Source of the DNA: Thermoproteota archaeon
GTDB taxonomy: Archaea > Korarchaeota > Korarchaeia > Korarchaeales > Korarchaeaceae
Assembly (NCBI GenBank): GCA_027061785.1
Contig: JAMOVA010000068.1
Span: 1 to 41,736, forward strand
Length of the DNA stretch: 41,736 nt
Direction: 5' to 3'
Shown here: one piece after another, positions 12,253-41,490 of the stretch
How positions within the stretch are numbered: the stretch's first letter is position 1
Layout of the letters: each line of letters starts with the position of its first letter
Notes under the pieces: generated by a model
Databases searched by the model: none
What the model was told of the DNA's origin: nothing
What the model saw: the letters and a program-made list of their open reading frames with translations, nothing else
Program-made: the position numbers and the translations under genes

Positions 12253-15200
12253 ATGCAGGAAAGATCAAAGGTCCAATCGACGTTTCTGATCTCCTTACTC
12301 CTGCTCTCATATCTGGGCATTGCGAGTAGCCTCACTTCACACTCAGCCGCATACGTCGACCAACTTGTTACTTTGATAGAGGAGAACTTCTCATCGAGCG
12401 AGAGAACCCGGCAAAGATTCGATCTGACGACGGAAGTGTACGATGTGGGAACTACTGGGAACTCATTTGTGAGTGTGAATGAGGCGAACGGCTGGCTCGT
12501 ATTCAAGGGATTCAACCAGGAAAATGCTGATAACCCGGATAAGGACGAGCCCATAGCTGTGCTAAAGGCTTATCAGGAACCAGATGGATTCTCACATTAT
12601 CTGAGGCTGCCCTACAATTACACGGTGACCGTGGACTTCTCGCTACCTCCAGGAGGGAAGGGGCACTTCTACGTCCTGCCGAGGTACGGGTCCGTGGCCG
12701 ACAAGTATGAGGTGGTCGTGGACACGGATTTCAACAATCTAGTCTTCAACGTGGTCCTCTCGGACGAATGGAGGGAGCTCAAGGCCTCTCCTCTTGGCTT
12801 CACCATAGAGGAGGGTAGGTGGTACAGGCTGCAGGTCACGGTGCTCTGGGTGACGGATCCTTCGACCGGCGACAAGGTAAACCGCATAATTGCAACGGTC
12901 ACGGACCTCGCCAATCCGCTCAACACGTACAGCGATGAGGTAGTGGATGGATCGATCTCGCCATCGGCCCATAATGGGCTAGCTATTCTGGGCTTCCACC
13001 CGTGGGAGGACTTCACGGTCTTGGCGGACAACCTGAAGGTGGAAACCTGGATGGAGAAGGTGGGCGAGGAGCCAAATGAGGGCCTCATCCCTAGCGACTT
13101 GGATGTGAAGGAGGTCTGGGCGCTCCACGATGACAGGCTCTTCGTCATGGTGAAGACCGCGGGCCCCATTGCGAGGGATCCCTCAGCTACCAAGTACTGG
13201 TCGGTGGAGCTCGACGCCGATAAGGACAGCCTGATATCGACCTCTTGGTTCAGCGACTACCGCATCGTCGTCAGTCTAGAGTCGGACGGGACCGAACGGG
13301 CTCACCTCTACGATGGTTCGGGGAACTGGATATCTCAGGTGCAGATCGTGGGCGGGGGAGAATCGTCGGATGTCTGGGTAGTGGGCGTGCCGCTCGGGCA
13401 GACCCCGCTCTTGCTGGACTCCTTCCTCCTCTACTCATACACGGAACTGGGCGCGACGGTAGTCGATAGATTCCCCGAGAGCGGCACTTCCACGGGAGAA
13501 TTCACCACCTACCCCTTAGAAGAACCGCCAACGGATTGGAAGGGCGAGGTGACCGATGCCTCTGGGGACGCATCGTCGCCCTACCTAGACATCACCGACT
13601 TCAAGGCCGGACTCAACTCCGAGCAGTTGATCTTCAGGATTGAGGTGTCGGGAACCCTACCTTGGTACGGTGGCTCCCCCGTCGGCACTTACTGGATCTT
13701 CATGGACACGGACGGGGATGCGGCCACGGGCTACCCGGTGGGGGGCATAGGCGCTGACTACATGGTGGAGTATCACTTGGGATACGCTCCGAAGCTGTAC
13801 GAGAACACGGGGGCCGGCTGGTCTTGGTCGTTCGTGGGGAGGTGCGAGCTCGTCCACAACCCCGGAGGAGGTACTGAGATCCTCCTGTCCGTACCTCGGC
13901 ATATGATATCCGATCTCCATAGAGAGCTCACCCTGGTGGCCGGATCCGGACAGTCGGGCTCGCTCTTAGACTATACGGATGCCTTAACCATGACCCTAGT
14001 GTACGATGCCGAATACTCCGATGCCGAGATTCCGGTTGACACGAACGGCAAGGAAGTGGACGTAGTTGGCGAGGCCATGGGAGCCCCCGGATCCTACGAC
14101 TTCGCCGGATGGTACACCAACACGGTGGCCTTCGATCCTGACACGAAGACTGCAGCCGTGGCTTGGGTGAGAAAGGACGCCGATAGTTACGGGAACGACA
14201 TCATATACTTAGAGATAGTGAAATTGGACTCGAAGAACGCCTCATTGACCGTGAAATACGTGGGGAAGGCCTCCAGCGTGGACAGCATAGACTCCCTGAT
14301 CATAGGCGGGGGTAGGATCCTCATAACTTGGACCTACTACACTCCATCCACCAAGACCGATGTGCGTGCGGCCCTGTACGACCTAGAAGGCAATTACATC
14401 TGGAGCGGCGATGTAAGGGACACTACTTACTTCGAGGAGTATAGCAGAGCCTGTTACGTGCCGGGAGAGGGTAAATACCTCATCATCTGGTACTCCAGCG
14501 ACGGCAAGAAAGTGGAAGGCAGGTGGCTATCTCCGGACGGGAGCATGGGCTCCCCGTTCTACATCACCTCGACGGGAGGGCTGTCCTACACCCAAGCGGA
14601 CCTCATGCTCTGCGTGGGTGGCGGTAGCAAGGCCCTGGTGGTCTACCGATACCTCGACGGCGGTGGAGATATAGGCCTCTCCGCGAGGCTAGTTGACAGC
14701 TCGGGCGTGTCCGGCTACATCACCCTCTATGACGACGACACCAAGGAGGAGATACCCGGGGTGGACGGGGCTTATCTGGAGTACGGAGGGGATGGTTACT
14801 TCCTCGTGCCCTTCCTCTCAGGCAGCGAGGTCAGGTACGCCGTGGTCAGGGACGATGGGACGGTGGTCTCCAACGACAGGAGACTAACCACCAACGGCAG
14901 GGATCCCTACGTGATAAGTTTGAATGACAGATTCGTGATCTCCTACATATATCTGAATGCGGATCCCGAGGGAGACCCGAGAATAGCGAACATAAACCCC
15001 TCATCATGGGCCTATCACATAAGAGTGGTAGATAGCGATTCAACCCAGATAGCCAAGCATCCTCTGATGGCCTACGACTCCCTCAACGATCGGGTAGTTT
15101 ATCTGTGGACTTCCGGCTCCTCCGGTAATTACGAGGTGGCGTACGCAATAATAGATCCTCAAGACAGTCCGGGAAAGTATCCCACTGTGGAAGAGAAGGG

Positions 15201-17958
15201 AACTCTCCTCTCAATGAGCGGTAACCAGATCGTCGACGGTTTGGCCGTGGTATCCAAGGACGAGTACTTGGCTGTGTACAGGGACGACAGTTACGGAGTT
15301 GAGGAGTTGATGTCGTACATCAGGTTACCAGAGAAAGAGGGCCTGTTGGATGCCTCTCTCATCGAACTACCGGAGGAAGGTGATCGGTACAAGAGCTTGG
15401 TTGAGGGCCTCATAGATGGAGCCTCATCCAAGATATATGTGGCCGTTGCGTTCATAGAGTATGAGGATATCCTGAAGAAGCTAGTGGAGGCCCACAACAG
15501 GGGGGTCGACGTCAGGGTCATAATGGATGACAGCCCGAGCAATTCTGACGCCCTCAATTACCTCCACACTTACGGGGTCGAGGCCATAGACGACTCCTCG
15601 CTGGGTGATCCCACCCACATAATGCACGATAAGTTCATAGTTATAGATGGCAGGAAGCTGCTCGTATCCACGGTGAACCTCATAGAGGATGACTTCTTCA
15701 GGAACAACAACACGGCGTTCGTGGTATCGAGCAGGACCGCGGCTTACTACTACGAGAGGGAGTTCCTCCAGATGTGGAACGGAGGAGCTGGCAAGTTCGG
15801 GATAGAGAAGACCCAAAGTAACGATTTCATCGCCTCTGCCACTTATTCCGGCAGGCAGCTGATGTTCCAGGGGCTCTTCACCCCGCAGGAGTTCGGGGAC
15901 AGGGGGAGGATACCGAATGTCCTGGCGGGATACGTCAAGAGGGCTTCAAAGCTCAGGTTCACCTCCTACATCTTCACCACCAGCGGATGGGTCTCACCGC
16001 TCTACGATGCCATAGTCCACGTGTTCGATAGCGGTGGAAGCGTCGTAGGAGTGTTTGACGAGCTCCTCAACCTTCGCAACAGGGGCAGGCGCATATACGA
16101 CCTGATAGAGGAGGGAGTCCCGGTCTACGTCGATACGCACAAGTACAAGATGCACGCCAAGCTCTTCGTGGTGGACGACGCCTTAGCGGCCCTAGGCAGC
16201 TGGAACCCGACCAAATCAGCCACCACCGTACACGACGAGAATGTCCTCGTGATAATGGACGACAGCTCCGACGGTTTCGCCTCCAGATTGAGTAACTGGG
16301 TGGACGAAATGGCGTCTGATCCGGAGCACTTCGCGCTGATAACCCCCACGTCCACCTACAGGGCTCCGCACCTCCTGATAACCGAGATCATGTTCATGCC
16401 CGATTCTACGGGCGATCCCGACGGTGAATGGGTGGAGATATACAACCCAACGGACAGCGACGTCGATCTCACGGACTACCTGATAGGGGACTCCGAGACC
16501 CTGCTTGGTACGGCCCCCTACGACGATGAAAGCCTCTACAGGTTCCCCGCGGGGGCGGTAATACAGGCCGGAAGGAGGATCGTTGTGGCCTACAAGGCGT
16601 CGGAGTTCGAATCCACTTACGGGTACAAACCCGACTTCGAGCTCGTGGACACGGACCCCACAGTCCCCGATCTCTCTCTATACGACCCAGCGGACTACGG
16701 TGACTCGTGGAACTTGGATGACTCGGGAGACGAGGTGCTGTTGATAAAGCTAGAGGAGGGAGGGTTCCTCCAGATAGTCAGCGCAGCGTGGTACGGCTCC
16801 TCCACGTACTTGGATGGTCCCGTCGACACCGCAGCGCTGGCTCCCGGTCAGGTGATCCAGAGGGTTCCCGAGGACCACGACGCAGCTTATGCTTCCGCGG
16901 TCTTCACCGTGGCCGCCCCATCGCCGCCCTACGCTGAGCTGAGCATCGGCGTAGAGACACCGTCCGGGGACCACCTCACCTGCCAGGTGCAGGTGACCTC
17001 CTCTTGGGGCGTGGACGCCTACGTAGGGGATGGAGATACCCTCCAGATCACCTCAGGCGATCAGCTGACCCTGACCGCGCAGGAATGCTCTGGGTATTCC
17101 TTCCTGAGGTGGAAGGGATATGTCAGCGACGTGACTTCCCAGATTTCATTCGAGATGCCGGACCATGACGTTGAGGAGATCGCAGTGTACAGCTCTAAGA
17201 ACTATGAACTCAGCATAAGGGTTGTCGATGACAAGGGTTCTTCCCTGCCCTGCACCGTCGAGATCTCGGTGAATGGGGTCCCTGCTGGCTTCTTCGGTGA
17301 TGGAGACTCCTTGACAGTTCAGGAGGGAGCTGAGGTCAAGGCATCTCCAACGAACTGCAGCGGATATTCATTCGACCACTGGGAGCTCGATGGAACAGAG
17401 CTGGATGAGGTTAATCCAACTTTTATGATGACGGGAGATCTGACCTTGAAGGCGATCTTCACGAGATCCCCTACGAGGAGGATTACCGCTCCCAAAGATT
17501 GGTACGCATCGATCTTCCCCGAGAAGTTCAGGTACGTAGCTAAGGGCGCGGATCTAGAGATGAACATGGATCTCCTCTCCAAGACAGCCGGACCATCGCT
17601 ACCAGGCCAGAGGAGCATGTTGATCATATTGGGAGGTCCCGATGTCGTTCCTTACAACTGGAGGGCTGTTGGTGTGAGGTTCCTCAGGGAGAAGGGCAGC
17701 TTTACTGGACTGGAGTTCAACTCCAGCGTTTACAAGGCCACCTTCGGGAAGATTGACTACGCGGCTATCTACGTGAATGGCGAAGACATGGTGGTGAGGA
17801 TAGCTGGAATCACCAGATATGGGACTAGAGCGGGACTGATCTATCTGGATGAACATCCGAGCCTGCTTGGTGCTACTGGACTCTATTTGATTGGGTGGAA
17901 GGACTTGGACGGAGACGGACGCATTAACTCGAACGAGATATTCCCGGTTTTTCCCTAA
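12253..17958 (+). CDS. Giant secreted phospholipase D-family protein with lamin-tail domain
   Basis: The 1901-residue protein has an N-terminal signal helix (10-27). A jelly-roll-like region (about 35-275) follows, then two beta-rich CBM9/DOMON-like segments (about 280-410 and 430-590). A long beta-propeller-like stretch (about 595-1030) shows repeated YLIIW, ALVVY and LAVY-type strands. Next are two phospholipase D half-sites: H1125-DK-x4-D1132 ending in STVN, and H1301-AK-x4-D1308 ending in GSWN. A lamin-tail-like domain (about 1372-1530, LLITEIMFMP and GEWVEIYNPT) and two related beta repeats (1562-1737) follow, with a C-terminal domain after them. Both catalytic motifs are intact, so hydrolysis of a phosphodiester (DNA or phospholipid) outside the cell is likely. 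Lamin-tail domains often accompany extracellular nucleases. Confidence 0.75.
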   Translation: MQERSKVQSTFLISLLLLSYLGIASSLTSHSAAYVDQLVTLIEENFSSSERTRQRFDLTTEVYDVGTTGNSFVSVNEANGWLVFKGFNQENADNPDKDEPIAVLKAYQEPDGFSHYLRLPYNYTVTVDFSLPPGGKGHFYVLPRYGSVADKYEVVVDTDFNNLVFNVVLSDEWRELKASPLGFTIEEGRWYRLQVTVLWVTDPSTGDKVNRIIATVTDLANPLNTYSDEVVDGSISPSAHNGLAILGFHPWEDFTVLADNLKVETWMEKVGEEPNEGLIPSDLDVKEVWALHDDRLFVMVKTAGPIARDPSATKYWSVELDADKDSLISTSWFSDYRIVVSLESDGTERAHLYDGSGNWISQVQIVGGGESSDVWVVGVPLGQTPLLLDSFLLYSYTELGATVVDRFPESGTSTGEFTTYPLEEPPTDWKGEVTDASGDASSPYLDITDFKAGLNSEQLIFRIEVSGTLPWYGGSPVGTYWIFMDTDGDAATGYPVGGIGADYMVEYHLGYAPKLYENTGAGWSWSFVGRCELVHNPGGGTEILLSVPRHMISDLHRELTLVAGSGQSGSLLDYTDALTMTLVYDAEYSDAEIPVDTNGKEVDVVGEAMGAPGSYDFAGWYTNTVAFDPDTKTAAVAWVRKDADSYGNDIIYLEIVKLDSKNASLTVKYVGKASSVDSIDSLIIGGGRILITWTYYTPSTKTDVRAALYDLEGNYIWSGDVRDTTYFEEYSRACYVPGEGKYLIIWYSSDGKKVEGRWLSPDGSMGSPFYITSTGGLSYTQADLMLCVGGGSKALVVYRYLDGGGDIGLSARLVDSSGVSGYITLYDDDTKEEIPGVDGAYLEYGGDGYFLVPFLSGSEVRYAVVRDDGTVVSNDRRLTTNGRDPYVISLNDRFVISYIYLNADPEGDPRIANINPSSWAYHIRVVDSDSTQIAKHPLMAYDSLNDRVVYLWTSGSSGNYEVAYAIIDPQDSPGKYPTVEEKGTLLSMSGNQIVDGLAVVSKDEYLAVYRDDSYGVEELMSYIRLPEKEGLLDASLIELPEEGDRYKSLVEGLIDGASSKIYVAVAFIEYEDILKKLVEAHNRGVDVRVIMDDSPSNSDALNYLHTYGVEAIDDSSLGDPTHIMHDKFIVIDGRKLLVSTVNLIEDDFFRNNNTAFVVSSRTAAYYYEREFLQMWNGGAGKFGIEKTQSNDFIASATYSGRQLMFQGLFTPQEFGDRGRIPNVLAGYVKRASKLRFTSYIFTTSGWVSPLYDAIVHVFDSGGSVVGVFDELLNLRNRGRRIYDLIEEGVPVYVDTHKYKMHAKLFVVDDALAALGSWNPTKSATTVHDENVLVIMDDSSDGFASRLSNWVDEMASDPEHFALITPTSTYRAPHLLITEIMFMPDSTGDPDGEWVEIYNPTDSDVDLTDYLIGDSETLLGTAPYDDESLYRFPAGAVIQAGRRIVVAYKASEFESTYGYKPDFELVDTDPTVPDLSLYDPADYGDSWNLDDSGDEVLLIKLEEGGFLQIVSAAWYGSSTYLDGPVDTAALAPGQVIQRVPEDHDAAYASAVFTVAAPSPPYAELSIGVETPSGDHLTCQVQVTSSWGVDAYVGDGDTLQITSGDQLTLTAQECSGYSFLRWKGYVSDVTSQISFEMPDHDVEEIAVYSSKNYELSIRVVDDKGSSLPCTVEISVNGVPAGFFGDGDSLTVQEGAEVKASPTNCSGYSFDHWELDGTELDEVNPTFMMTGDLTLKAIFTRSPTRRITAPKDWYASIFPEKFRYVAKGADLEMNMDLLSKTAGPSLPGQRSMLIILGGPDVVPYNWRAVGVRFLREKGSFTGLEFNSSVYKATFGKIDYAAIYVNGEDMVVRIAGITRYGTRAGLIYLDEHPSLLGATGLYLIGWKDLDGDGRINSNEIFPVFP
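16936..17465 (+). repeat. Two-copy protein repeat in the giant secreted protein
   Basis: Residues about 1562-1650 and 1652-1737 each begin with ELSI and contain a cysteine about 15 residues in, then GDGD(T/S)L, CSGYSF and a W. They are diverged tandem copies of a beta-rich unit resembling the bacterial InlB-type/SHIRT-like repeats. Each copy has two cysteines, which could form a disulfide outside the cell. Confidence 0.65.
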
Positions 17959-21031: not shown

Positions 21032-22327
21032 TTGCTGATAGAGGGAGTCAGTAAGCTCCCGCACTGCAAGTATGACCCTAGGGTCGGTAAATTAAGGACT
21101 CTCGCCTACAGATACAGGGAATTGAAGGAGCTTCTACCTCATGCGATCGATCAAGTTCTCGATCCCCTTCCTCCTCCTGATTTGACTGAGAAGGTGACTC
21201 TAAGACCCTACCAGGAGGACGCCCTCAACTCTTGGTTGCGGAAGAGGAGGGGGATAATAGTCCTCCCTACGGGGGCAGGCAAGACGTACATAGCGCTGAG
21301 GGCGATGGAAGTATTGAGAGAGCCAACTCTAATAATCGTCCCGACGCTTCCACTACTCAAACAGTGGAAGGACCTGATAGAATCCATCTACGGCATAAAG
21401 GTCGGTGCGATAGGTGGAGGGAGCGAGGACCTGAGGTCTGTCACGGTGATAACGTACGACTCAGCTTACATCAGGGCCTCGGAGCTCGGAAACAAGTTCA
21501 CCTTTTTGGTGTTCGACGAGGTGCATCACCTAGCGGCGGAGGCCTACATAGAGATCGCGGAGTACTCGGCGGCGCCCTTCAGGATGGGGCTGACGGCCAC
21601 GCTGGAGAGGGAGGACGGGAGGCACGTACTCCTCTTCCCCTTGGTGGGCGGTGTAGTCTATCAGATCTCCCCCAAAGAGCTGGCTGGCGAACACCTAGCT
21701 GAGTTCGACACTATCAGGATAAGAGTGGATCTGACGGAGGAGGAGAGGGCCAGATACGAGGCGCTGGTCAGGGAATACAAGGAGGCACTCAGGCAGGCTG
21801 GGATAACCATGAGGTCGCTCGAGGATTTCAGGAAGCTCGTCATGAGAAGTACATCGAACAAGGCAGCTAGGAGGGCTCTTCTCGCCTGGAACGAGGCTAG
21901 AAAAATTGCTATAAACTCCAAGAGCAAGCTTGAAGTTCTGGAGAGCTTGCTGGAGAGCCACAGGGACGACAAGGTGATCATATTCACGGAGTACAACGAG
22001 ATGGCCGAGGAGATAAGCAGAAAGTACTTGATCCCCCTGATTACCCACAGGACGAGTCAGAGGGAGAGGAACCGCATCCTGGACTCCTTCAGGGTGGGCT
22101 CGGTCACGAAGATAGTGACCTCGAAGGTCCTCGACGAGGGTATAGATGTGCCGGACGCTAGAGTAGGTATAGTGCTCGGAGGCACCGGCAGCAGGAGGGA
22201 GTTCATACAGAGGCTGGGCAGGATCCTCAGGAAGAGGGAGGGAAAGAGGGCCGTTCTCTACGAAGTAGTATCGAAAGGAACGTCCGAGGTCAGGATATCG
22301 AGCAGGAGGAGGAAGGGGTTGGGCTGA
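21032..22327 (+). CDS. xpb: XPB/Rad25-type DNA helicase
   Basis: A superfamily 2 helicase that opens damaged DNA, partner of Bax1 in archaea. Helicase motifs in order: I PTGAGKT, Ia VPTLPLLKQW, II DEVHH (variant of DEAH), III GLTATLEREDG, then the ThM-like insertion, IV IIFTEYNEM, V VLDEGIDVPDA and VI QRLGRILR. The N-terminal damage-recognition domain is seen in KYDPRVGKLRTLAYRYREL. Homology to archaeal XPB continues upstream of the first canonical start (TTG 21032), as VLRISYDRGTLLIEG read from 21002. No ATG, GTG or TTG exists in that frame between the stop at 20954 and 21032. The true start may be GTA 21002 or CTG 21005, with GGTGG at 20990-20994. The last base overlaps bax1. Confidence 0.88.
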   Translation: MLIEGVSKLPHCKYDPRVGKLRTLAYRYRELKELLPHAIDQVLDPLPPPDLTEKVTLRPYQEDALNSWLRKRRGIIVLPTGAGKTYIALRAMEVLREPTLIIVPTLPLLKQWKDLIESIYGIKVGAIGGGSEDLRSVTVITYDSAYIRASELGNKFTFLVFDEVHHLAAEAYIEIAEYSAAPFRMGLTATLEREDGRHVLLFPLVGGVVYQISPKELAGEHLAEFDTIRIRVDLTEEERARYEALVREYKEALRQAGITMRSLEDFRKLVMRSTSNKAARRALLAWNEARKIAINSKSKLEVLESLLESHRDDKVIIFTEYNEMAEEISRKYLIPLITHRTSQRERNRILDSFRVGSVTKIVTSKVLDEGIDVPDARVGIVLGGTGSRREFIQRLGRILRKREGKRAVLYEVVSKGTSEVRISSRRRKGLG

Positions 22328-23844
22328 TGCTTCCCTCCCAGCTGTTGAGGGCCAGGGTCAGGAGATCGATGCTGCTCCCTCTCTGGGCGAGGGGTACTGA
22401 CGAGGAGATAGAGCTTGCCAGGGAACTGATATCCGCGTTCGAGCAGGGGAGAAGGCTCAGCGAGATCCACGAGAGGGTCGAGGAGATAGAGGAGATGTAC
22501 GAACTCTTGGGGATGGACTACAGGTTTGTCAGAGGGTTGGCCCTCCTCCTCGAGAGGATGAGCCAGTTCAGGAGACCGGAAACCGTCGTAGAACCGGAGA
22601 AGGCTAGAGAAGTAGTGTTCCGTCTGGTCAATGCGAAATACGGCGGCTTCGTGACCGAAGAAATGAGGGATCAGGCGCTGGAGGAAGCGGCCCGCGAGCT
22701 GGGGATCTCCAAGGAGGATCTGGAGAGCAGCCTGTGGGCCGACTCCGACGACTTCCAAGTGTTGATCTCCAGGCCTGAGATCTCCCCTGAGGATCTCCTC
22801 CGAAAGTACAACCTCTCACTGCTCCAGACATCACTCTTCAAGGCCCTATATCTGAGGATAGAGACTGGAGCGGCGGGATGGGAGGTCAAGGGATTCCTCA
22901 GGGCGCTCAAGCGCTTAGGCCTGATGTACACGGCGGAGAAGATTGATGGAGGCGTGGCAATAGAGGTCAGCGGCCCCGCTTCCATACTCAAGATGACCAC
23001 TAGGTACGGTACGTCCTTGGCCAAGCTGATCCCCCACGTCGTCTCGATGTCCCACTGGAGGATCTCAGCCAGGATCGCTAGGAATAAGAGGGTGCTCTCG
23101 CTGAAGCTGGACTCCAGGGCTAGGGACCTGTTCCCGGACGAGGGTATTGAGGAGCCCCAGTACGACAGCTCCCTCGAGAGGAGGTTCGCCTCTATAGCCG
23201 AGGCCGGCGGTTGGAGGGCCATCAGGGAGCCAGAACCCCTAGTAGCTGGACGTTCCATCCTCATACCAGATTTCCTCCTCGTGAAGGGGCCAGCAAAGGT
23301 TTATGTGGAAGTCATGGGCTTCTGGACCCCAGAATACGTCGAAAAGAAGATCAGGAAGCTGTCCCTCTTGAAGGAACCCATACTCATCGTGGCGAGGAAG
23401 GACCTCCTCTGCTCGAGGACAGAGAGCCTGCCGAAAGACGTCTTCTACATCGAAGGGAGCATCGACAAGGTGGCTCTGCTGAGGAAACTCAACGAGCTGG
23501 AGAGGAGGGCTATGGAAGATATTGCGCTGTCGGATCGCGACCTCGAGGGCGATATCGTGGATCTCAGGTCCCTAGCTAGGGAGAGGGGAATGAGGGTCGA
23601 TCAGCTGAAGAGGGTCCTTTCCTTAGAGAGCTACCGGGTACTGGGAGACTATGCGATCCGGAAAGAGCTGCTGGAGTCACTCAAAGCCAAGAAGATTCCC
23701 AGAAAGGTTAAGGAGCTGAAGAAAGTGCTCAGGGAGGAGGGTCTCCCCGAGGATGTGGCCTTGCCCTTGGCGTCGGCCTTGGGCTATGAGGTGGTGTGGC
23801 ACGGGCTGGACGAGGACGAGGCCGAGCTGTACCCTGCGGACTGA
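22327..23844 (+). CDS. bax1: Bax1, XPB-associated nuclease (DUF790)
   Basis: Bax1 is a structure-specific nuclease that binds archaeal XPB, and together they are thought to do nucleotide excision repair cleavage. The 505-residue protein starts with the family MLPSQLLRARVR and a helical region. It carries a PD-(D/E)xK-like core in ILIPDFLLVKG...KVYVEVMGFWTPEYVEKK (Asp near 315, Glu near 327, Lys near 337). The start ATG overlaps the XPB stop (TGATG), so the two are made together. Length agrees with the family. Confidence 0.88.
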   Translation: MLPSQLLRARVRRSMLLPLWARGTDEEIELARELISAFEQGRRLSEIHERVEEIEEMYELLGMDYRFVRGLALLLERMSQFRRPETVVEPEKAREVVFRLVNAKYGGFVTEEMRDQALEEAARELGISKEDLESSLWADSDDFQVLISRPEISPEDLLRKYNLSLLQTSLFKALYLRIETGAAGWEVKGFLRALKRLGLMYTAEKIDGGVAIEVSGPASILKMTTRYGTSLAKLIPHVVSMSHWRISARIARNKRVLSLKLDSRARDLFPDEGIEEPQYDSSLERRFASIAEAGGWRAIREPEPLVAGRSILIPDFLLVKGPAKVYVEVMGFWTPEYVEKKIRKLSLLKEPILIVARKDLLCSRTESLPKDVFYIEGSIDKVALLRKLNELERRAMEDIALSDRDLEGDIVDLRSLARERGMRVDQLKRVLSLESYRVLGDYAIRKELLESLKAKKIPRKVKELKKVLREEGLPEDVALPLASALGYEVVWHGLDEDEAELYPAD

Positions 23845-35836: not shown

Positions 35837-36418
35837 TCACCTCAAAAGTATCTCGTCCAATCTGACTAGGACCGCCCCTTCCCTCACCATCTCGTTCTTG
35901 GCTCTCTCCTCATCGCTCGGATCTATGCCCCTCACCGCATCCTCCACGACAAAGACCTCGAACCCCAACTTCAGCGCATCCAAGACTGTGGCCCTGACGC
36001 AGTACTCGGTCGCGACACCCCCCACGAAGAGCCTCCTAACCCCTCTCTTTTCAAGGATCTCTTTGAGGTTGGTCCCCTCGAAACCCGAGTACGCATCTTT
36101 ATCCCTATCCGTTGCCTTGGAGACTATCACAGCACCTTCAGGGACCGCCAGATCGGGGTGGAACTCGGCGCCCTCGCTCCCCTGAACGCAGTGAGGGGGC
36201 CAGGGACCACCCCTCTGTTTGAAGGATATGTGGTCGGGAGGGTGCCAGTCCCTAGTGTAGATCACGGTGAAACCTCTCTCGGCGAAATAGGAGATCAGGA
36301 CATTCAGGGGTGGCACGACCTCGTCCCCCTTGGGGACGGGAAGGGCGCCCCCGGGCATGAAGTCCCTCTGAACGTCCACCACGATGAGCGCTGGGTTCCG
36401 GACCGGTGCTACCCTCAT
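35837..36418 (-). CDS. pncA: Nicotinamidase (PncA-like isochorismatase family)
   Basis: Converts nicotinamide to nicotinate in NAD salvage. The 193-residue protein has the catalytic set Asp15 (VVDVQRDF), Lys101 (VSKATDRD) and Cys140 (VATEYCVRATVLDA). Metal ligands Asp57, His59 (TRDWHP) and His76 (PPHCVQG) have spacing matching archaeal nicotinamidases. ATG 36418 stands about 26 nt below a TATA-like box, so the transcript is probably leaderless. It is followed by the small TIGR04076-like gene. Confidence 0.88.
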   Translation of the reverse strand: MRVAPVRNPALIVVDVQRDFMPGGALPVPKGDEVVPPLNVLISYFAERGFTVIYTRDWHPPDHISFKQRGGPWPPHCVQGSEGAEFHPDLAVPEGAVIVSKATDRDKDAYSGFEGTNLKEILEKRGVRRLFVGGVATEYCVRATVLDALKLGFEVFVVEDAVRGIDPSDEERAKNEMVREGAVLVRLDEILLR

Positions 36419-36439
36419 AAGGTGAATGTGAGCGTGGAT

Positions 36440-36449
36440 CTCATAAACT
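36440..36449 (-). promoter_or_regulatory. TATA-like box of the nicotinamidase gene
   Basis: AAGTTTATGA on the minus strand stands 22-31 nt before the ATG at 36418, with no ribosome binding site between, consistent with leaderless expression. Confidence 0.5.
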
Positions 36450-36473
36450 TAGAAAGGTGGAGGATGTGGAGGA

Positions 36474-37520
36474 TCAGACCTCCAGCTCATCCAAGAAGTC
36501 GGGAATCCAGGAGAACATGTCCTGCGAGACCTTGGCCACCATGTCCACTCCAACTACCTCGCTGGGGTAGACGGGGATGTAGGACCTCACCAAGGATCCG
36601 AGATCCCTCTCTATCTCGGCCATGTACCCCAGCTGCTCCCTGTACTTATTCCTTATGTACTCGTTCGTCGTCGCCTCAGCGACGGCCTTCGGTATCACCT
36701 GATTCACGATGACCCCGCCGACGGGTATGTCGAAGCCCCTCACCATCTTGATGAACCTCTTCACCACCGCTATTGGCAGGGAAAGGGGCAGCGTGACGAA
36801 GAAGAACGCGGTGAGTTCATCGTTGAGCAGGATGTCCTTGACCCTGTTGAACCTGTCCTGCATGGACAGCAGGTCGGCCATGAGGGGATCCTTCTTTATC
36901 TCCTCCATCACCTTCTCCTTGCGGAAGGACAGCTTCACCCTGAGGGACAAGGCTTCCTTCCTACTCTCGATCATCCTCTCAAGCCATAGACCGTATATCT
37001 TGCTCAAGCCTATCAGCCTGGCCGCGTTCGCAACGGCGGCGGTGTCGAAGACGACCACATCGTACTCCTCACCCTGCTGGAGCACCACGTCCATCATCTT
37101 GTCGAACATGGCCGACTCTTGGAAGGCCGGGTTCGTAGTGGCTATGTCGATGAAGGGCTTGGGATCCATGGGTATGTCCGCCCACTTCAGGAACTCCGAA
37201 AGCCTCTTCGCTATGTTCTGCTTGTACTTCTCCACAACATCATCTATCTCCACCTCGAGGGCGTAGAGGTTAGGAGCCCCCTCTACGGGCTTTATGGCTC
37301 CTCCTCTCAGGTCCTGACCGAACAGGCTTGACAGCGAGTGCACGGGGTTGAGGGACACGAGGAGAGTCTTCTTCCCATCCTTGGCGAACCTGTAAGCTAA
37401 ACCAGCAGCGGATACGGTCTTCCCAACGCCTCCCTTACCCCCAGTGAAGAGGAACTTGAGCTTGGGCTTTTGAGAGAGAAACTCGGGCATCAACACCTTC
37501 TCCTCCAGGCTCACCACCAT
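36474..37520 (-). CDS. Get3/ArsA-like ATPase with altered switch regions
   Basis: A 348-residue deviant-P-loop ATPase (GKGGVGKT, residues 28-35) of the Get3/ArsA family, whose members target tail-anchored proteins or drive arsenite efflux. Unlike its neighbour it lacks the switch I aspartate: the STDPAH position reads SLNPVH with Asn58. Its switch II is FDTAAVANAARLI rather than DTAPTGH. There are no cysteines at all, so neither the Get3 zinc CxxC nor ArsA metal-binding cysteines exist. The hydrophobic middle (AFFFVTLPLSLPIAVVKRFI) is typical. The start overlaps the end of the other ATPase gene by 10 nt. I expect a pseudo-catalytic partner in a heterodimer (inference). Confidence 0.8.
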   Translation of the reverse strand: MVVSLEEKVLMPEFLSQKPKLKFLFTGGKGGVGKTVSAAGLAYRFAKDGKKTLLVSLNPVHSLSSLFGQDLRGGAIKPVEGAPNLYALEVEIDDVVEKYKQNIAKRLSEFLKWADIPMDPKPFIDIATTNPAFQESAMFDKMMDVVLQQGEEYDVVVFDTAAVANAARLIGLSKIYGLWLERMIESRKEALSLRVKLSFRKEKVMEEIKKDPLMADLLSMQDRFNRVKDILLNDELTAFFFVTLPLSLPIAVVKRFIKMVRGFDIPVGGVIVNQVIPKAVAEATTNEYIRNKYREQLGYMAEIERDLGSLVRSYIPVYPSEVVGVDMVAKVSQDMFSWIPDFLDELEV

Positions 37521-38512
37521 AGCAGGTCCCTCCTCGAGTGCATCAGGTCCTCAGCGACCTTCGCAATCATCTCCAATCCCTTTGGTTCCCTATCGTACAT
37601 GGGGATTAGTGCCGCAACGAGATCACCGAACTTCTCTCTTATTTCAAGCAGGTGCTTCTCCTGCATCTCTATCTTCTTCCTCAGGAGTTCGGGCAGGTCA
37701 GGCTTGTTTAACAGGTCCCTAGGATATATCTGGTTGACCACCACGCCGGACATCTCTATGTTCAGCTCCCTGAACATCTCCAGCGCGCGTTCCGTGTCCA
37801 GTATGGCCATCTTCTCCGGCACCATCACCATGAAGAAGGCTGTCTTCTCGGAGTTGGTCATCAGCTCGGTGAAGGTGGTCATCTTCTTCCTTATCTCCTC
37901 CAGCTCCTTCAGGACCATGTCCTCGGTCTGCATCCCTCCCTTCAGGGTAGCAGCGACGGCCTCGTACTCAGCTGCCTCCTTCCTAGCTTCAGTTATCTTG
38001 TCCACCCAGGCGCTGAGGATCTCCGCCATCGCCACCATCCTGACCCCGTGGCCGAAGGGAGGCATGTCGAAGACGTAGAGGTCGTACTCACCCGAGGCCA
38101 CCAGATCCGCCATAGCATCGTAAGTCGCGGATTCGTACATCGCGGGCTCGGCGGAGGTGCTATCTATGTACTCCTCAATCTCCTTGGGGAGTTCCTCCAG
38201 TCCATACATGTCCAGTATCTTCTGCTTGATCTCCTGCTGGTATTCGGCTATCTTCTTGTCAGCGTCTATCTCCACCACGTAAAGGTTGGGCGCCACCTCC
38301 ACGACTCCCTTGCCGAAGAGGTCCCTCTCGAAGATGTCGCTGAGGGAAGCTTGGGGATCCGTGCTGAAGCAGAGGACCTTCTTCCCCTCATTCACGGCCA
38401 TGTGGTAGCTCAGGGCGGCGCTGCTCGTCGTCTTTCCCAGGCCACCTTTTCCGGCGAACACCACGACCTCTATATCCGGCTTTCTCGCGAAGAACTCAGC
38501 TAAACCCACCAT
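37511..38512 (-). CDS. Get3/ArsA-like ATPase, catalytically complete member of the pair
   Basis: The 333-residue protein has P-loop GKGGLGKT (21-28), switch I FSTDPQASLSDIF with Asp52 present, and switch II FDMPPFGHGVRMV, close to the DTAPTGH pattern. A helical middle with VNQIYPRDLLNKPDLPELLRKKI corresponds to the client-binding region. No zinc CxxC is present. It is paralogous to the following ATPase over its full length. Upstream, 35 nt away, is small protein A, and before it CstA. The four genes share strand and tight spacing and look like one operon. ArsA is unlikely, given no arsenite cysteines and no ArsB. Confidence 0.85.
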   Translation of the reverse strand: MVGLAEFFARKPDIEVVVFAGKGGLGKTTSSAALSYHMAVNEGKKVLCFSTDPQASLSDIFERDLFGKGVVEVAPNLYVVEIDADKKIAEYQQEIKQKILDMYGLEELPKEIEEYIDSTSAEPAMYESATYDAMADLVASGEYDLYVFDMPPFGHGVRMVAMAEILSAWVDKITEARKEAAEYEAVAATLKGGMQTEDMVLKELEEIRKKMTTFTELMTNSEKTAFFMVMVPEKMAILDTERALEMFRELNIEMSGVVVNQIYPRDLLNKPDLPELLRKKIEMQEKHLLEIREKFGDLVAALIPMYDREPKGLEMIAKVAEDLMHSRRDLLWW

Positions 38513-38547
38513 GGAACCACTCTCCCATCTTATCCTCTTCTATCCCA

Positions 38548-38871
38548 TCAGCCGCTCAGCAGGTCGGTGAAGTCCCTCTCCCTGAACAGCCTCTCCTTCC
38601 AAGACTTTATGTTTGGGACCACGTAGGGCAGGATCTTCAGCGAGTAATAGGGCGGGATTATCGGGAAGCCCAGCATGTCACCCAGAGTCATCAGCATGAA
38701 GAGGTGCTCCATGTGCATCCTAGTCTTCAGGGCTGCAGTGGCCGCTCCGTGGACAGCGAAGCCGTAGAGCACTCCCTTAAGGGCCTCAGAAACTCCCTCC
38801 TTCTTCTCTTCCTCCTTTTCCTTCTTCTTCCTACCGAATAATGGTATAGGAATCACCTCCCAATCGGACAT
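38548..38871 (-). CDS. Small hydrophobic protein A with RERD motif
   Basis: A 107-residue protein from ATG 38871: a charged segment (RKKKEKEEEKK, 14-24), then mostly hydrophobic MEHLFMLMTLGDMLGFPIIPPYYSLKI segments (written here in part: MEHLFMLMTLGDMLG, IIPPYYSLKI). It ends in LPYVVPNIKSWKERLFRERD (81-100). The same end occurs in small protein B (40747-41025), so they are paralogues. No named family recognised. Start is odd: the ATG has no ribosome binding site, yet a full GGGAGGTGAT lies inside the frame at 38861-38852, five nt before an ATA codon (38847). It sits between cstA and the two ATPases, suggesting a partner or client of one of them. Confidence 0.65.
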   Translation of the reverse strand: MSDWEVIPIPLFGRKKKEKEEEKKEGVSEALKGVLYGFAVHGAATAALKTRMHMEHLFMLMTLGDMLGFPIIPPYYSLKILPYVVPNIKSWKERLFRERDFTDLLSG

Positions 38872-38891
38872 GAAAAAGGGAAATAAAAGGT

Positions 38892-40625
38892 TTAGGGAGA
38901 GACAGCTTTGGCCTCTACTTCTCCTCTTTTCGCCTTGAAGTAAGCGTTCCAGAGGGCATAGCTCATGTAGATGCCCAGCACGAAGAGTATTATTCCTATG
39001 ACGAAGAATAGCGCGTTGAGGGCCCACGCCGCCCCAGGATACTGGGTAAGCGGTGGTTTCGCTAGAGGCTTCTTTATACCGAAGGTGCTCAACCCGAAGG
39101 TGTATATCTCCCAGAGTAAGGCCGAAAGGGTTACTACCGTCATGAAGGCGGCTGGCACGGCGGAGTACCACGAGGGCTTGTTCATCTTAGCCACGTAGAA
39201 GGCCACCAGCGTGAGGGCCATGGCCGCCAGCAGCTGGTTGCTACCTCCGAAGTATATCCACAGGTTTATCCAGCTGCCAGTGAGTGCGAAGATTATTGGC
39301 AGTATCAGACCCGTAGCGGTAGCTATATACTTATTCCCGAGCCATGCCCAGGATCCCCTGAAGAGCTCGGCGCTGAACACACGCCAGTACCTGGTGACGA
39401 GGGCCTGCACGGTTATGGCGTATATAACGAGGAATATCGAGAAGAACGTCAGCAGATACGCCTTGGATGCATCTCCTCCGAGGAACGGAGCGGTCAGCAG
39501 GGTGGCCCCATTCACGAAGGCCGATATCTTACCCTTGGCTATGAGGTCGGGTGAAACCACCATGTAGGCAGCGAGGGCTGAGGTGGCGAGCAGGCCCTCG
39601 GTGAGCATCGCTCCAGCTCCCACGGGCCTGGCATCGGTCTCCACGTCAAGCTGCTTCCCAGTGGTGGAGGTGCTGACGAGGCTGTGCCATCCCGATATCG
39701 CACCGCATGCTATGGACACGAAGAGGATCGGGAATATCGGGCCGACATTCTCGACGTACCATCCCTTGAATGCTGGCTGGATGAGCTTTATGCCAGTGGC
39801 AGGAGATATGAGGGCACCGAATATTATCAGGAGGACACCTCCTATGGCCGGGAACACAGCCACGAAGTTCATCGGCGTTATGAACTTGGGGAGCGGAACT
39901 ATCGCTCCCACGAAGAGTATTATCGCGAGGATTATCGACCACACCTGAACTGACCACGGACCGAAGAAGTTCTTGGGCGGCCAAGCCACGGCAGTGCCTA
40001 TTCCAACGCTGATCAGCGTGAGTATTATCGCTAGGGCGGTGACCCCGAAGATGTTAGCCTTGTACTTGTAGAGGAGCTCTCCCACTATGAGACCGGTTAT
40101 TATGATGCCTATCGTAGCAATGAAGGAACCGGGGAAGACGTTCCAGAAGAGCGATACGAGGTATATGAACACCGCCGATATTATCAGTAGGTAGAAGAGC
40201 AGGTAAGCCAGCAGTATCTTCCTTCCCCTCTCACCTATGGCGTTGTAGACGAGGGGACCCATGGACCTGCCCTCGTTCCTGACCGTGAGCATTATGGTGC
40301 TGTAGTCTTGGACCCAGCCGATGAACATGTTCCCTATCACTATCCAGATGAGGGCCGGAAGCCAGCCGTAGGCGACCGCTATGAACGGTCCCAGGATGGG
40401 TCCTAGGGCGGCTATGCTCTTGAACTGGAATCCGTAGAGGACGTACCTGCTGACCGGGAAGTACTCCACGCCGTCCAAGTACATGTGAGCTGGTGTAACC
40501 CTCTTCTCGCTTACCTCCCAGATGTGCTCATCCACCCACTTGGCATACACGTAGTAGGCGAATCCGTAAGCAACTAGGGCCCCGATTATCCAGAGGGAGG
40601 GGGTCTCCAAGAACGCTACCTGCAT
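38892..40625 (-). CDS. cstA: CstA-like carbon starvation/peptide or organic acid transporter
   Basis: A polytopic protein of 577 residues with about 15 helices. CstA landmarks: KRVTPAHMYLDGVEYFPVSRYVLYGFQFKSIAALGPILGP early, GWLPALIWIVIGNMFIGWVQDYS, RNEGRSMGPLVYN, GAISGWHSLVSTSTTGKQL and FGGSNQLLAAMAL late (each quoted in part). Members import peptides or pyruvate-like compounds. ATG 40625 follows GGGGGGT. Here the gene heads a set with small protein A and two Get3-like ATPases. An inverted repeat lies about 100 nt upstream. Confidence 0.9.
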   Translation of the reverse strand: MQVAFLETPSLWIIGALVAYGFAYYVYAKWVDEHIWEVSEKRVTPAHMYLDGVEYFPVSRYVLYGFQFKSIAALGPILGPFIAVAYGWLPALIWIVIGNMFIGWVQDYSTIMLTVRNEGRSMGPLVYNAIGERGRKILLAYLLFYLLIISAVFIYLVSLFWNVFPGSFIATIGIIITGLIVGELLYKYKANIFGVTALAIILTLISVGIGTAVAWPPKNFFGPWSVQVWSIILAIILFVGAIVPLPKFITPMNFVAVFPAIGGVLLIIFGALISPATGIKLIQPAFKGWYVENVGPIFPILFVSIACGAISGWHSLVSTSTTGKQLDVETDARPVGAGAMLTEGLLATSALAAYMVVSPDLIAKGKISAFVNGATLLTAPFLGGDASKAYLLTFFSIFLVIYAITVQALVTRYWRVFSAELFRGSWAWLGNKYIATATGLILPIIFALTGSWINLWIYFGGSNQLLAAMALTLVAFYVAKMNKPSWYSAVPAAFMTVVTLSALLWEIYTFGLSTFGIKKPLAKPPLTQYPGAAWALNALFFVIGIILFVLGIYMSYALWNAYFKAKRGEVEAKAVSP

Positions 40626-40746
40626 ATTTACCCCCCTGAAAGCGATCTTTAAGTAGGTAGGGTCAGCAGTTAGCTAATTAACTTTGCTATATACGTCTTT
40701 TGCTTATGTCATGGAAAGATTTTTCACAAATCATGTGAATTATTTT
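40626..40746. promoter_or_regulatory. cstA upstream region with inverted repeat
   Basis: On the minus strand CTTAAAGA (about 40654-40647) can serve as TATA box for cstA. Further up lies an AT-rich tract with a perfect 6-bp inverted repeat TTCACA-aatca-TGTGAA at 40723-40739, the size of a dimeric regulator site. T runs at 40720-40724 and 40741-40748 may instead belong to termination of small protein B's transcript. Confidence 0.45.
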
Positions 40747-41025
40747 TCATACAGTCTCCGGGACCTCCTCGGTTATATCCCTCTCCCTGAGCTGCCTCTG
40801 CTTCCAACCCTCTATCTCAGGCAGCAGGTAGGGTAGAAGCCTCAGCATAATTGGAGTGGTCATAAGTGGGAGGCCCAGCAACTCGCCCATGAGCAGGAGG
40901 TTGACCGCATCCCTGAGCTTGGCCGCTTCCTTCTTCGTGTCCCAGTAGAGGTCGAAGTAGAAGAGACCAAAGAGGAACTCCTTGACAGCCCTCTTAAATT
41001 CCTCCCATCTCATGGCAGAGGACAC
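40747..41025 (-). CDS. Small hydrophobic protein B, paralogue of small protein A
   Basis: A 92-residue protein: an amphipathic N-terminus (WEEFKRAVKEFLFGLFYFDLYW), a hydrophobic middle (AVNLLLMGELLGLPLMTTPI) and the end LLPYLLPEIEGWKQRQLRERDITEEV, which matches small protein A in LPYxxPxIxxWKxRxxRERDxT. GTG 41025 is supported by GAGGA five nt upstream; an ATG at 41013 is the alternative. It overlaps the upstream hypothetical gene by 32 nt, so those two are co-expressed. Not a recognised family; possibly membrane-associated. Confidence 0.65.
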   Translation of the reverse strand: MSSAMRWEEFKRAVKEFLFGLFYFDLYWDTKKEAAKLRDAVNLLLMGELLGLPLMTTPIMLRLLPYLLPEIEGWKQRQLRERDITEEVPETV

Positions 41026-41467
41026 CCACTTCCTCGAGTATCTTCATCATGTTTAGATCGGACGGGCCCTTAAACATTATCTGAATGGTCCTATCTGTGA
41101 TGTCGCAGTAGTGGACCGTGAACAGGTGGTTCTTGTTCCTCCCAGTTATGATCCCCCTCCCCACGTAGTACGTGGCGGGATGACCCCCCACCTCCGTTTC
41201 ACCGGTCCTCTCCACCCTGATCCTGGGTTTCAAGTCCTTCCTGCCTGGTCTGACCACGATCCTCAGGTCCACAGCGTAGCTGGGGGTCGCTAACACATGG
41301 TAGCTCTCCCCGTAGGTCACGTAGGCCAGGTGACCCCTCCTCTCGTACTGAGTGATGTCCGATCCGTAGGCTGTGGCCATCACCTCCGCTTCATCCGGTA
41401 TGGTGAGTGTGAGGAAGTCCACCGTGCCGAAGAGGGAACTGATCGCCCTTATGTGCACCCGCTTCAT
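40994..41467 (-). CDS. Conserved-looking hypothetical protein, beta-rich
   Basis: A 157-residue protein without signal peptide or membrane helix. It has alternating beta-type segments (VDLRIVVRPG, PATYYVGRGIITG, LFTVHYCDITDRTIQIMFKG) and ends in a helix with MKILEEVGVLCHEM, leaving two cysteines. I do not recognise the family. ATG 41467 (GTG 41470 just before) has GGAG close upstream and a TATA-like ATAAAACC about 25 nt away. It overlaps small protein B, so it probably belongs with the CstA/Get3-like block. Confidence 0.55.
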   Translation of the reverse strand: MKRVHIRAISSLFGTVDFLTLTIPDEAEVMATAYGSDITQYERRGHLAYVTYGESYHVLATPSYAVDLRIVVRPGRKDLKPRIRVERTGETEVGGHPATYYVGRGIITGRNKNHLFTVHYCDITDRTIQIMFKGPSDLNMMKILEEVGVLCHEMGGI

Positions 41468-41490
41468 CACTCCAGCCGCATTCGCGGGTA

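Follow-up and report, generated by a model that had tools for sequence, protein, structure and literature searches.

An expanded CstA-CstX-ArsA gene cluster in Korarchaeota with a divergent ATPase pair and a beta-rich component

The window analyzed here, a stretch of 41,736 nucleotides, lies on contig C68 of a korarchaeal genome of 1.76 megabases. Six genes on its minus strand encode, from upstream to downstream, a beta-rich protein, a small protein (B), a transporter of the CstA family, a second small protein (A), and two ATPases of the ArsA/Get3 family, ATPase 1 and ATPase 2 (Table 1). Pfam and NCBIfam matches bear out CstA and both ATPases. We refer to this set as the module. The start of the B gene overlaps the end of the beta-rich gene, and a gap of 121 base pairs (bp) separates the two from cstA. 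The gap between cstA and A is 20 bp and that between A and ATPase 1 is 35 bp, while the two ATPase genes overlap by 10 bp. A preliminary description of the window had named all of these genes, with the strand and place at which we find them, and its division of the set into two tight groups is a fair one; both ATPase genes lie just outside the range it gave, 38548 to 41470. It had also called the set an uncharacterized module. In the sense of unknown, this term does not hold, since the arrangement was described by Castillo and Saier in 2010 (PMC2963123). The korarchaeal cluster is an unusually elaborate, expanded member of the published CstA-CstX-ArsA system and is ordinary in kind. What is new here is an apparently half-inactive ATPase pair, with a natural change of Asp to Asn in the second ATPase; a beta-rich component that had not been described for this gene set; and a Cys-Cys tail shared among CstA systems, on a small partner or on CstA itself.

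Table 1. Genes of the module and the adjoining downstream gene, with positions in the window
Feature	Position	Strand	Remarks
Beta-rich protein	40994-41470	-	158 amino acids; third module component
Small protein B	40747-41025	-	92 amino acids if started at GTG, 88 if at ATG, the likelier start; NF041419, E = 2e-6
CstA-family transporter	38892-40625	-	577 amino acids; PF02554, E = 2e-104
Small protein A	38548-38871	-	107 amino acids; directly before ATPase 1; NF041419, E = 1e-7
ATPase 1 (Get3a)	37511-38512	-	333 amino acids; PF02374, E = 4e-68; TIGR00345
ATPase 2 (Get3b)	36474-37520	-	348 amino acids; PF02374, E = 1e-55; TIGR00345
Isochorismatase-fold (nicotinamidase-like) gene	35837-36418	-	PF00857, E = 3e-41; 55 bp downstream of ATPase 2

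Castillo and Saier described 26 bacterial and archaeal clusters that combine cstA with cstX, which encodes about 90 amino acids, and with arsA, which encodes a single-domain protein of about 330 amino acids, without ars genes; they argued for coevolution and proposed that ArsA energizes CstA and that CstX is the linker (PMC2963123). The korarchaeal cluster has the same components: CstA, a small protein of about 90 amino acids, and single-domain ArsA proteins, and we found no ars resistance genes among the seven genes from 35837 to 41470 with Pfam and NCBIfam. Adjacent ArsA pairs are also known from clusters of the Pyrobaculum arsenaticum and Symbiobacterium type, and P. arsenaticum, in which an adjacent ArsA pair is accompanied by two CstX proteins, has the same make-up as the korarchaeal module (PMC2963123). 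The published account differs in several respects. An Asn in a second ATPase was not reported there, and the DPA motif given lists substitutions of the P only. The beta-rich protein was not described and Korarchaeota were not mentioned, while CstY, with about 210 amino acids and one transmembrane segment, is a protein of another size and type. In a literature search, we found no later paper that pairs the name CstX with CstA and none on CC-star proteins.

Small proteins A and B are paralogues. The motif LPYxxPxIxxWKxRxxRERDxT, which the preliminary description had noted, is exact in both. A search with A recovers B in the same genome (E = 3e-11) and matches no other protein there, and the profiles of A and B align with an hhalign probability of 99.8% (E = 2e-27). 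Thus, the likeness reflects paralogy and not chance. That these are duplicated proteins was therefore well seen; that they are hydrophobic was overstated, with a negative mean hydropathy for both and a best 19-residue window of about 1.3 to 1.7. Their tails are hydrophilic and form no C-terminal membrane segment, ending in DLLSG in A and VPETV in B, and neither protein contains a single Cys. Nor are they without a family, as had been stated, since they have relatives both in NF041419, named cory-CC-star (here, cory), and in the CstX of Castillo and Saier (PMC2963123). NF041419 gives A 31.8 bits and B 27.6 bits against a curated cut-off of 80, which was reached in none of 29 Korarchaeota genomes. 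However, bacterial cory profiles align with those of korarchaeal A and B at an hhalign probability of 96.7% (E = 4e-10). Because the profiles match while the scores stay below the cut-off, A and B are distant homologues of cory that lie outside the NF041419 equivalog. They share with it the core GxP...YxLxLxP...W...E and the position beside an ArsA-type ATPase and CstA, but they lack the CC end, occur as two paralogues, and in A carry a charged N-terminal extension. A and B are thus homologues of the small protein that bacterial cstA-arsA operons encode, and we equate that protein with CstX by its length and its place among the genes. Small protein A is predicted, with low confidence, to consist of two helices (predicted local distance difference test [pLDDT], 68). 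A sequence search with A against viral contigs and plasmids returned no match.

The module is held together across genomes. One set of 14 among the 29 Korarchaeota genomes contains CstA, NF041419-like proteins of the CstX family, and the ATPase pair, and the other 15 have none of them; the chance of so exact a split is about 1e-8 if genomes are treated as independent, which they are not. A, B, and both ATPases are present in all 14 even where cstA is inverted or elsewhere, and A lies directly before ATPase 1 in every one. B adjoins the beta-rich gene in most of these genomes. The orientation of cstA is variable, and in one genome it is on another contig. A scan of a genome collection with a bacterial cory query gave 331 relatives, and we examined the best 80, a sample biased toward the closest matches, in Bacillota, Pseudomonadota, Gemmatimonadota, and Acidobacteriota. 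Both cstA and arsA were found at 79 of these 80 loci, the sole exception being truncated by a contig end, and at 74 the order was cstA-cory-arsA on one strand. Of 249 evenly drawn Pseudomonadota genomes, 5 contained cory (one of them the center genome) and 134 contained CstA; all 5 cory genes follow cstA at 0.2 to 0.3 kilobases, and none of these 5 genomes contains YbdD. Of seven bacterial genomes checked for ArsA-family proteins, four encode none besides the CstA-linked ATPase. By their RefSeq names, the same genes are also found on plasmids of Cytobacillus, Pseudochrobactrum, and Paracoccus. In the bacterial loci and korarchaeal genomes examined, small proteins of this kind are thus not found apart from the ATPases, the one truncated locus aside, and the linkage to cstA is not confined to the source genome, so the preliminary description withstands both of the refutations that it had named.

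One explanation of such linkage is passive, namely, that these genes share a single starvation-induced operon and their products do not cooperate physically. Metabolic genes do adjoin the module: an isochorismatase-fold gene follows it immediately downstream in 7 of the 14 genomes, which all belong to one genus; 1 further genome has the gene at another place in the locus, and the other genera have none. This gene is probably a neighbor and not a part of the module. However, linkage and co-occurrence of the module genes persist from Bacillota, Pseudomonadota, Gemmatimonadota, and Acidobacteriota to Korarchaeota despite reordering, which makes mere co-location very improbable.

The two ATPases differ in their catalytic motifs. 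ATPase 1 has an intact P-loop, GKGGLGKTT, and the switch I sequence STDPQAS. ATPase 2 keeps the P-loop, but its switch I reads SLNPVHS, with Asn in place of Asp, and its switch II is degenerate (DTAAVAN). Among the 14 korarchaeal genomes, the switch I residue is Asp in every ATPase 1 and Asn in every ATPase 2, and it is Asp in all 79 bacterial CstA-linked ATPases that could be read at this position. Going by the aligned motif and the residue numbering of yeast Get3, we take this residue to be the equivalent of D57 in that protein. The D57N variant of yeast Get3 binds ATP and does not hydrolyze it (PMC12506534). Since the Asp is replaced in 14 of 14 ATPase 2 proteins, the pair is probably a heterodimer of one active and one inactive subunit. 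In a tree, ATPase 1 and ATPase 2 form sister clades (97/86) that are distinct from the bacterial set as well as from the ArsA-family proteins that korarchaeal genomes encode without this linkage. The pair therefore most likely arose by duplication within the system, although long branches and the midpoint rooting call for caution. As a separate observation, the sole ArsA-family gene of one korarchaeal genome (G013, contig C2, 76991 to 77865) is split across two frames, through a frameshift or else an error in sequencing.

Other systems built on this ATPase family are only partly alike. The korarchaeal ATPases share the GKGGxGKT P-loop and the ArsA/Get3 fold with Get3/TRC40 and with the mycobacterial pair Rv3679/Rv3680 (BagA/BagB; PDB 6bs3), and like the latter they are two diverged subunits; in contrast to these systems, they lack the CxxC motif and are linked to a transporter. 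Against NF053622 and NF053621, the BagA and BagB families, ATPase 1 scores 46 bits of 400 and 39 of 521 and ATPase 2 scores 56 and 38, all below the cut-offs. The ArsA-ArsB pump likewise places an ArsA-type ATPase beside a permease resembling a secondary transporter, but its ATPase is a double protein of about 600 amino acids whereas the korarchaeal subunits are single-domain, and the permease here is CstA and not ArsB. With TIGR04291, ATPase 1 reaches 98 bits and ATPase 2 reaches 80, against a cut-off of 650.

The beta-rich protein is likewise a component of the module. Its homologues lie beside or near the other genes in 13 of the 14 korarchaeal genomes, and its gene usually adjoins B and moves with it; in one genome (G018), B and the beta-rich gene form a pair on a separate contig. 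We found no Pfam or NCBIfam family match for it. The AlphaFold2 model is all beta (pLDDT, 88; predicted template modeling [TM] score, 0.84). Foldseek matched this model to DcrB, PsbP, LpqN, SciW, and Mog1, weakly despite the good model (E values of about 4e-3 to 6e-2; for the best match, E = 3.5e-3 and a TM score of about 0.40). H97, C122, C152, and H153 are invariant in an alignment of 11 homologues, and C122 and C152 are the only cysteines of the protein.

The main rival to transport control is that the ATPases serve insertion or assembly. The Get3-like heterodimer, with the beta-rich protein as a chaperone, would deliver or assemble CstA, or A and B, and would not gate the finished transporter. 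The nearest solved structures of both ATPases are archaeal Get3 and ArsA1, the latter an ATPase of the ArsA/Get3 family, and the fold matches of the beta-rich protein include SciW, whose structure was solved bound to a transmembrane segment. However, the CxxC motif of Get3, present in the archaeal Get3 structures that align with the korarchaeal ATPases, is missing from all 28 korarchaeal proteins (14 of each kind) and from all 80 bacterial CstA-linked ATPases. Further, the hydrophilic tails of A and B offer no membrane anchor, the match to SciW and its like is weak, the partner is fixed to one transporter family, and other CstAs reach the membrane without such a module. We therefore consider insertion or assembly unlikely. 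The preliminary description had suggested a module that serves either membrane insertion or control of the transporter; the functional module holds up, and of the two ideas transporter control is to be preferred, while Get3-like membrane insertion loses ground.

We also compared the partners of CstA with its ancestry. The korarchaeal CstAs form one supported clade, and YbdD-linked, bacterial cory-linked, and korarchaeal CstAs fall on separate, well-supported branches, with some partnerless CstAs interleaved. Judging by this tree, the choice of partner tracks CstA ancestry. The bacterial cory-linked clade has a sister clade (loci L175, L176, L177, and L180) that is common in Pseudomonadota and has neither cory nor YbdD adjoining it. 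In Escherichia coli, pyruvate uptake by CstA requires the small protein YbdD, whose gene adjoins cstA (PMC5847655). The two systems are alike in having a small protein beside CstA, which ends in CC in both bacterial cory and YbdD, but YbdD comes without an ATPase, belongs with a separate CstA branch, and has no detectable homology to cory, A, or B. A and B gave no Pfam match to the YbdD family (PF04328), and the hhalign probability was below 2%. Treating YbdD and cory as a single family was rejected for want of profile homology.

A C-terminal CC was present in all 80 bacterial cory proteins and in 31 of 32 YbdD proteins of the E. coli type. Where members of the YbdD-type group in Pseudomonadota have no YbdD, CstA itself ends in RCC (10 of 10; loci L184, L185, and L189 to L196), and none of the 5 YbdD-linked or 81 cory-linked CstAs that we checked has a CC end. 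Two of the 10 RCC-ended CstAs were placed in the tree, and because they share one branch within the YbdD-type group, the RCC end may have arisen in a single event. The korarchaeal A and B break this pattern. We also rejected the rule that all CstA systems carry a CC tail, since several CstA groups show no partner with such an end. On a Streptomyces plasmid (NZ_CP139046.1, L171, 4251 to 5162), an unannotated frame ending in CC lies directly after cstA and is possibly an overlooked YbdD-like protein.

The distribution of this tail allows a second alternative, in which control is through thiols. The CC tail of cory, YbdD, or CstA would be the working element and the ATPase would merely recruit it; in Korarchaeota, the role would have passed to the beta-rich protein. 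Consistent with this, the two cysteines of the beta-rich protein are invariant whereas A, B, and ATPase 2 have none. However, the module persists in Korarchaeota although A and B lack the tail, several other CstA groups show no CC-ended partner, the link from the CC tail to the cysteines of the beta-rich protein is conjecture, and there may be other reasons why archaea of hot springs avoid Cys. On balance, thiol control appears distinctly improbable. A broader scheme would join both ideas: a CC element that can be swapped among CstA, YbdD, and cory would have been lost from korarchaeal cory, and the module would have gained a two-cysteine beta-rich protein and a half-dead ATPase heterodimer, so that different subunits of an ATP-controlled transporter would take on the thiol and the ATPase function. 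We regard this scheme as speculative and rather doubtful.

The reading that we favor, and to which we give somewhat better than even chances, is that of an expanded CstA-CstX-ArsA system in which adaptors join the ATPase heterodimer to CstA and the ATP cycle controls transport. CstA would be the membrane transporter; the substrates of E. coli CstA are pyruvate or peptides. A and B would be adaptors of the CstX/cory type that link CstA, on its cytoplasmic side, to the ATPase dimer, A by way of ATPase 1 and B jointly with the beta-rich protein. ATPase 1 would hydrolyze ATP, whereas ATPase 2 would bind ATP with little or no hydrolysis. The ATP cycle would then switch CstA on or add driving force, much as ArsA does for ArsB; Castillo and Saier had arrived at this coupling hypothesis from their 26 clusters (PMC2963123). 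We read A and B as adaptors by analogy with YbdD, which E. coli CstA needs, and because we hardly ever found cory/CstX proteins without CstA and the ATPase. Formation of the heterodimer, its contact with CstA, and ATP-dependent control are what we infer from these patterns. Several points weigh against this proposal. Most CstAs function without this ATPase, as the Pseudomonadota draw illustrates. A and B have no CC tail, common to all 80 bacterial cory proteins examined, so the adaptors may work differently here. The structure prediction for cory is of low confidence, and the literature that we found offers neither interaction nor transport measurements on CstX proteins or on ArsA proteins linked to CstA.

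Two further features of the window were read by eye. From 21032 to 23844, two adjacent genes with a 1-base overlap putatively encode a helicase of the XPB type and a nuclease resembling Bax1, and from 12253 to 17958 lies a gene for a secreted protein of 1901 amino acids with putative phospholipase-D-like HKD motifs.

An ArsA/Get3-type ATPase beside a nutrient transporter has been a puzzle since 2010, and the korarchaeal form of the system gives a sharp handle on it. With a natural D57N-like subunit fixed in all 14 genomes, the ATPase cycle is predicted to be asymmetric. Within the group sampled, the CC tail appears on CstA exactly where the small partner is missing, which offers a route to the role of YbdD and of cory-CC-star.

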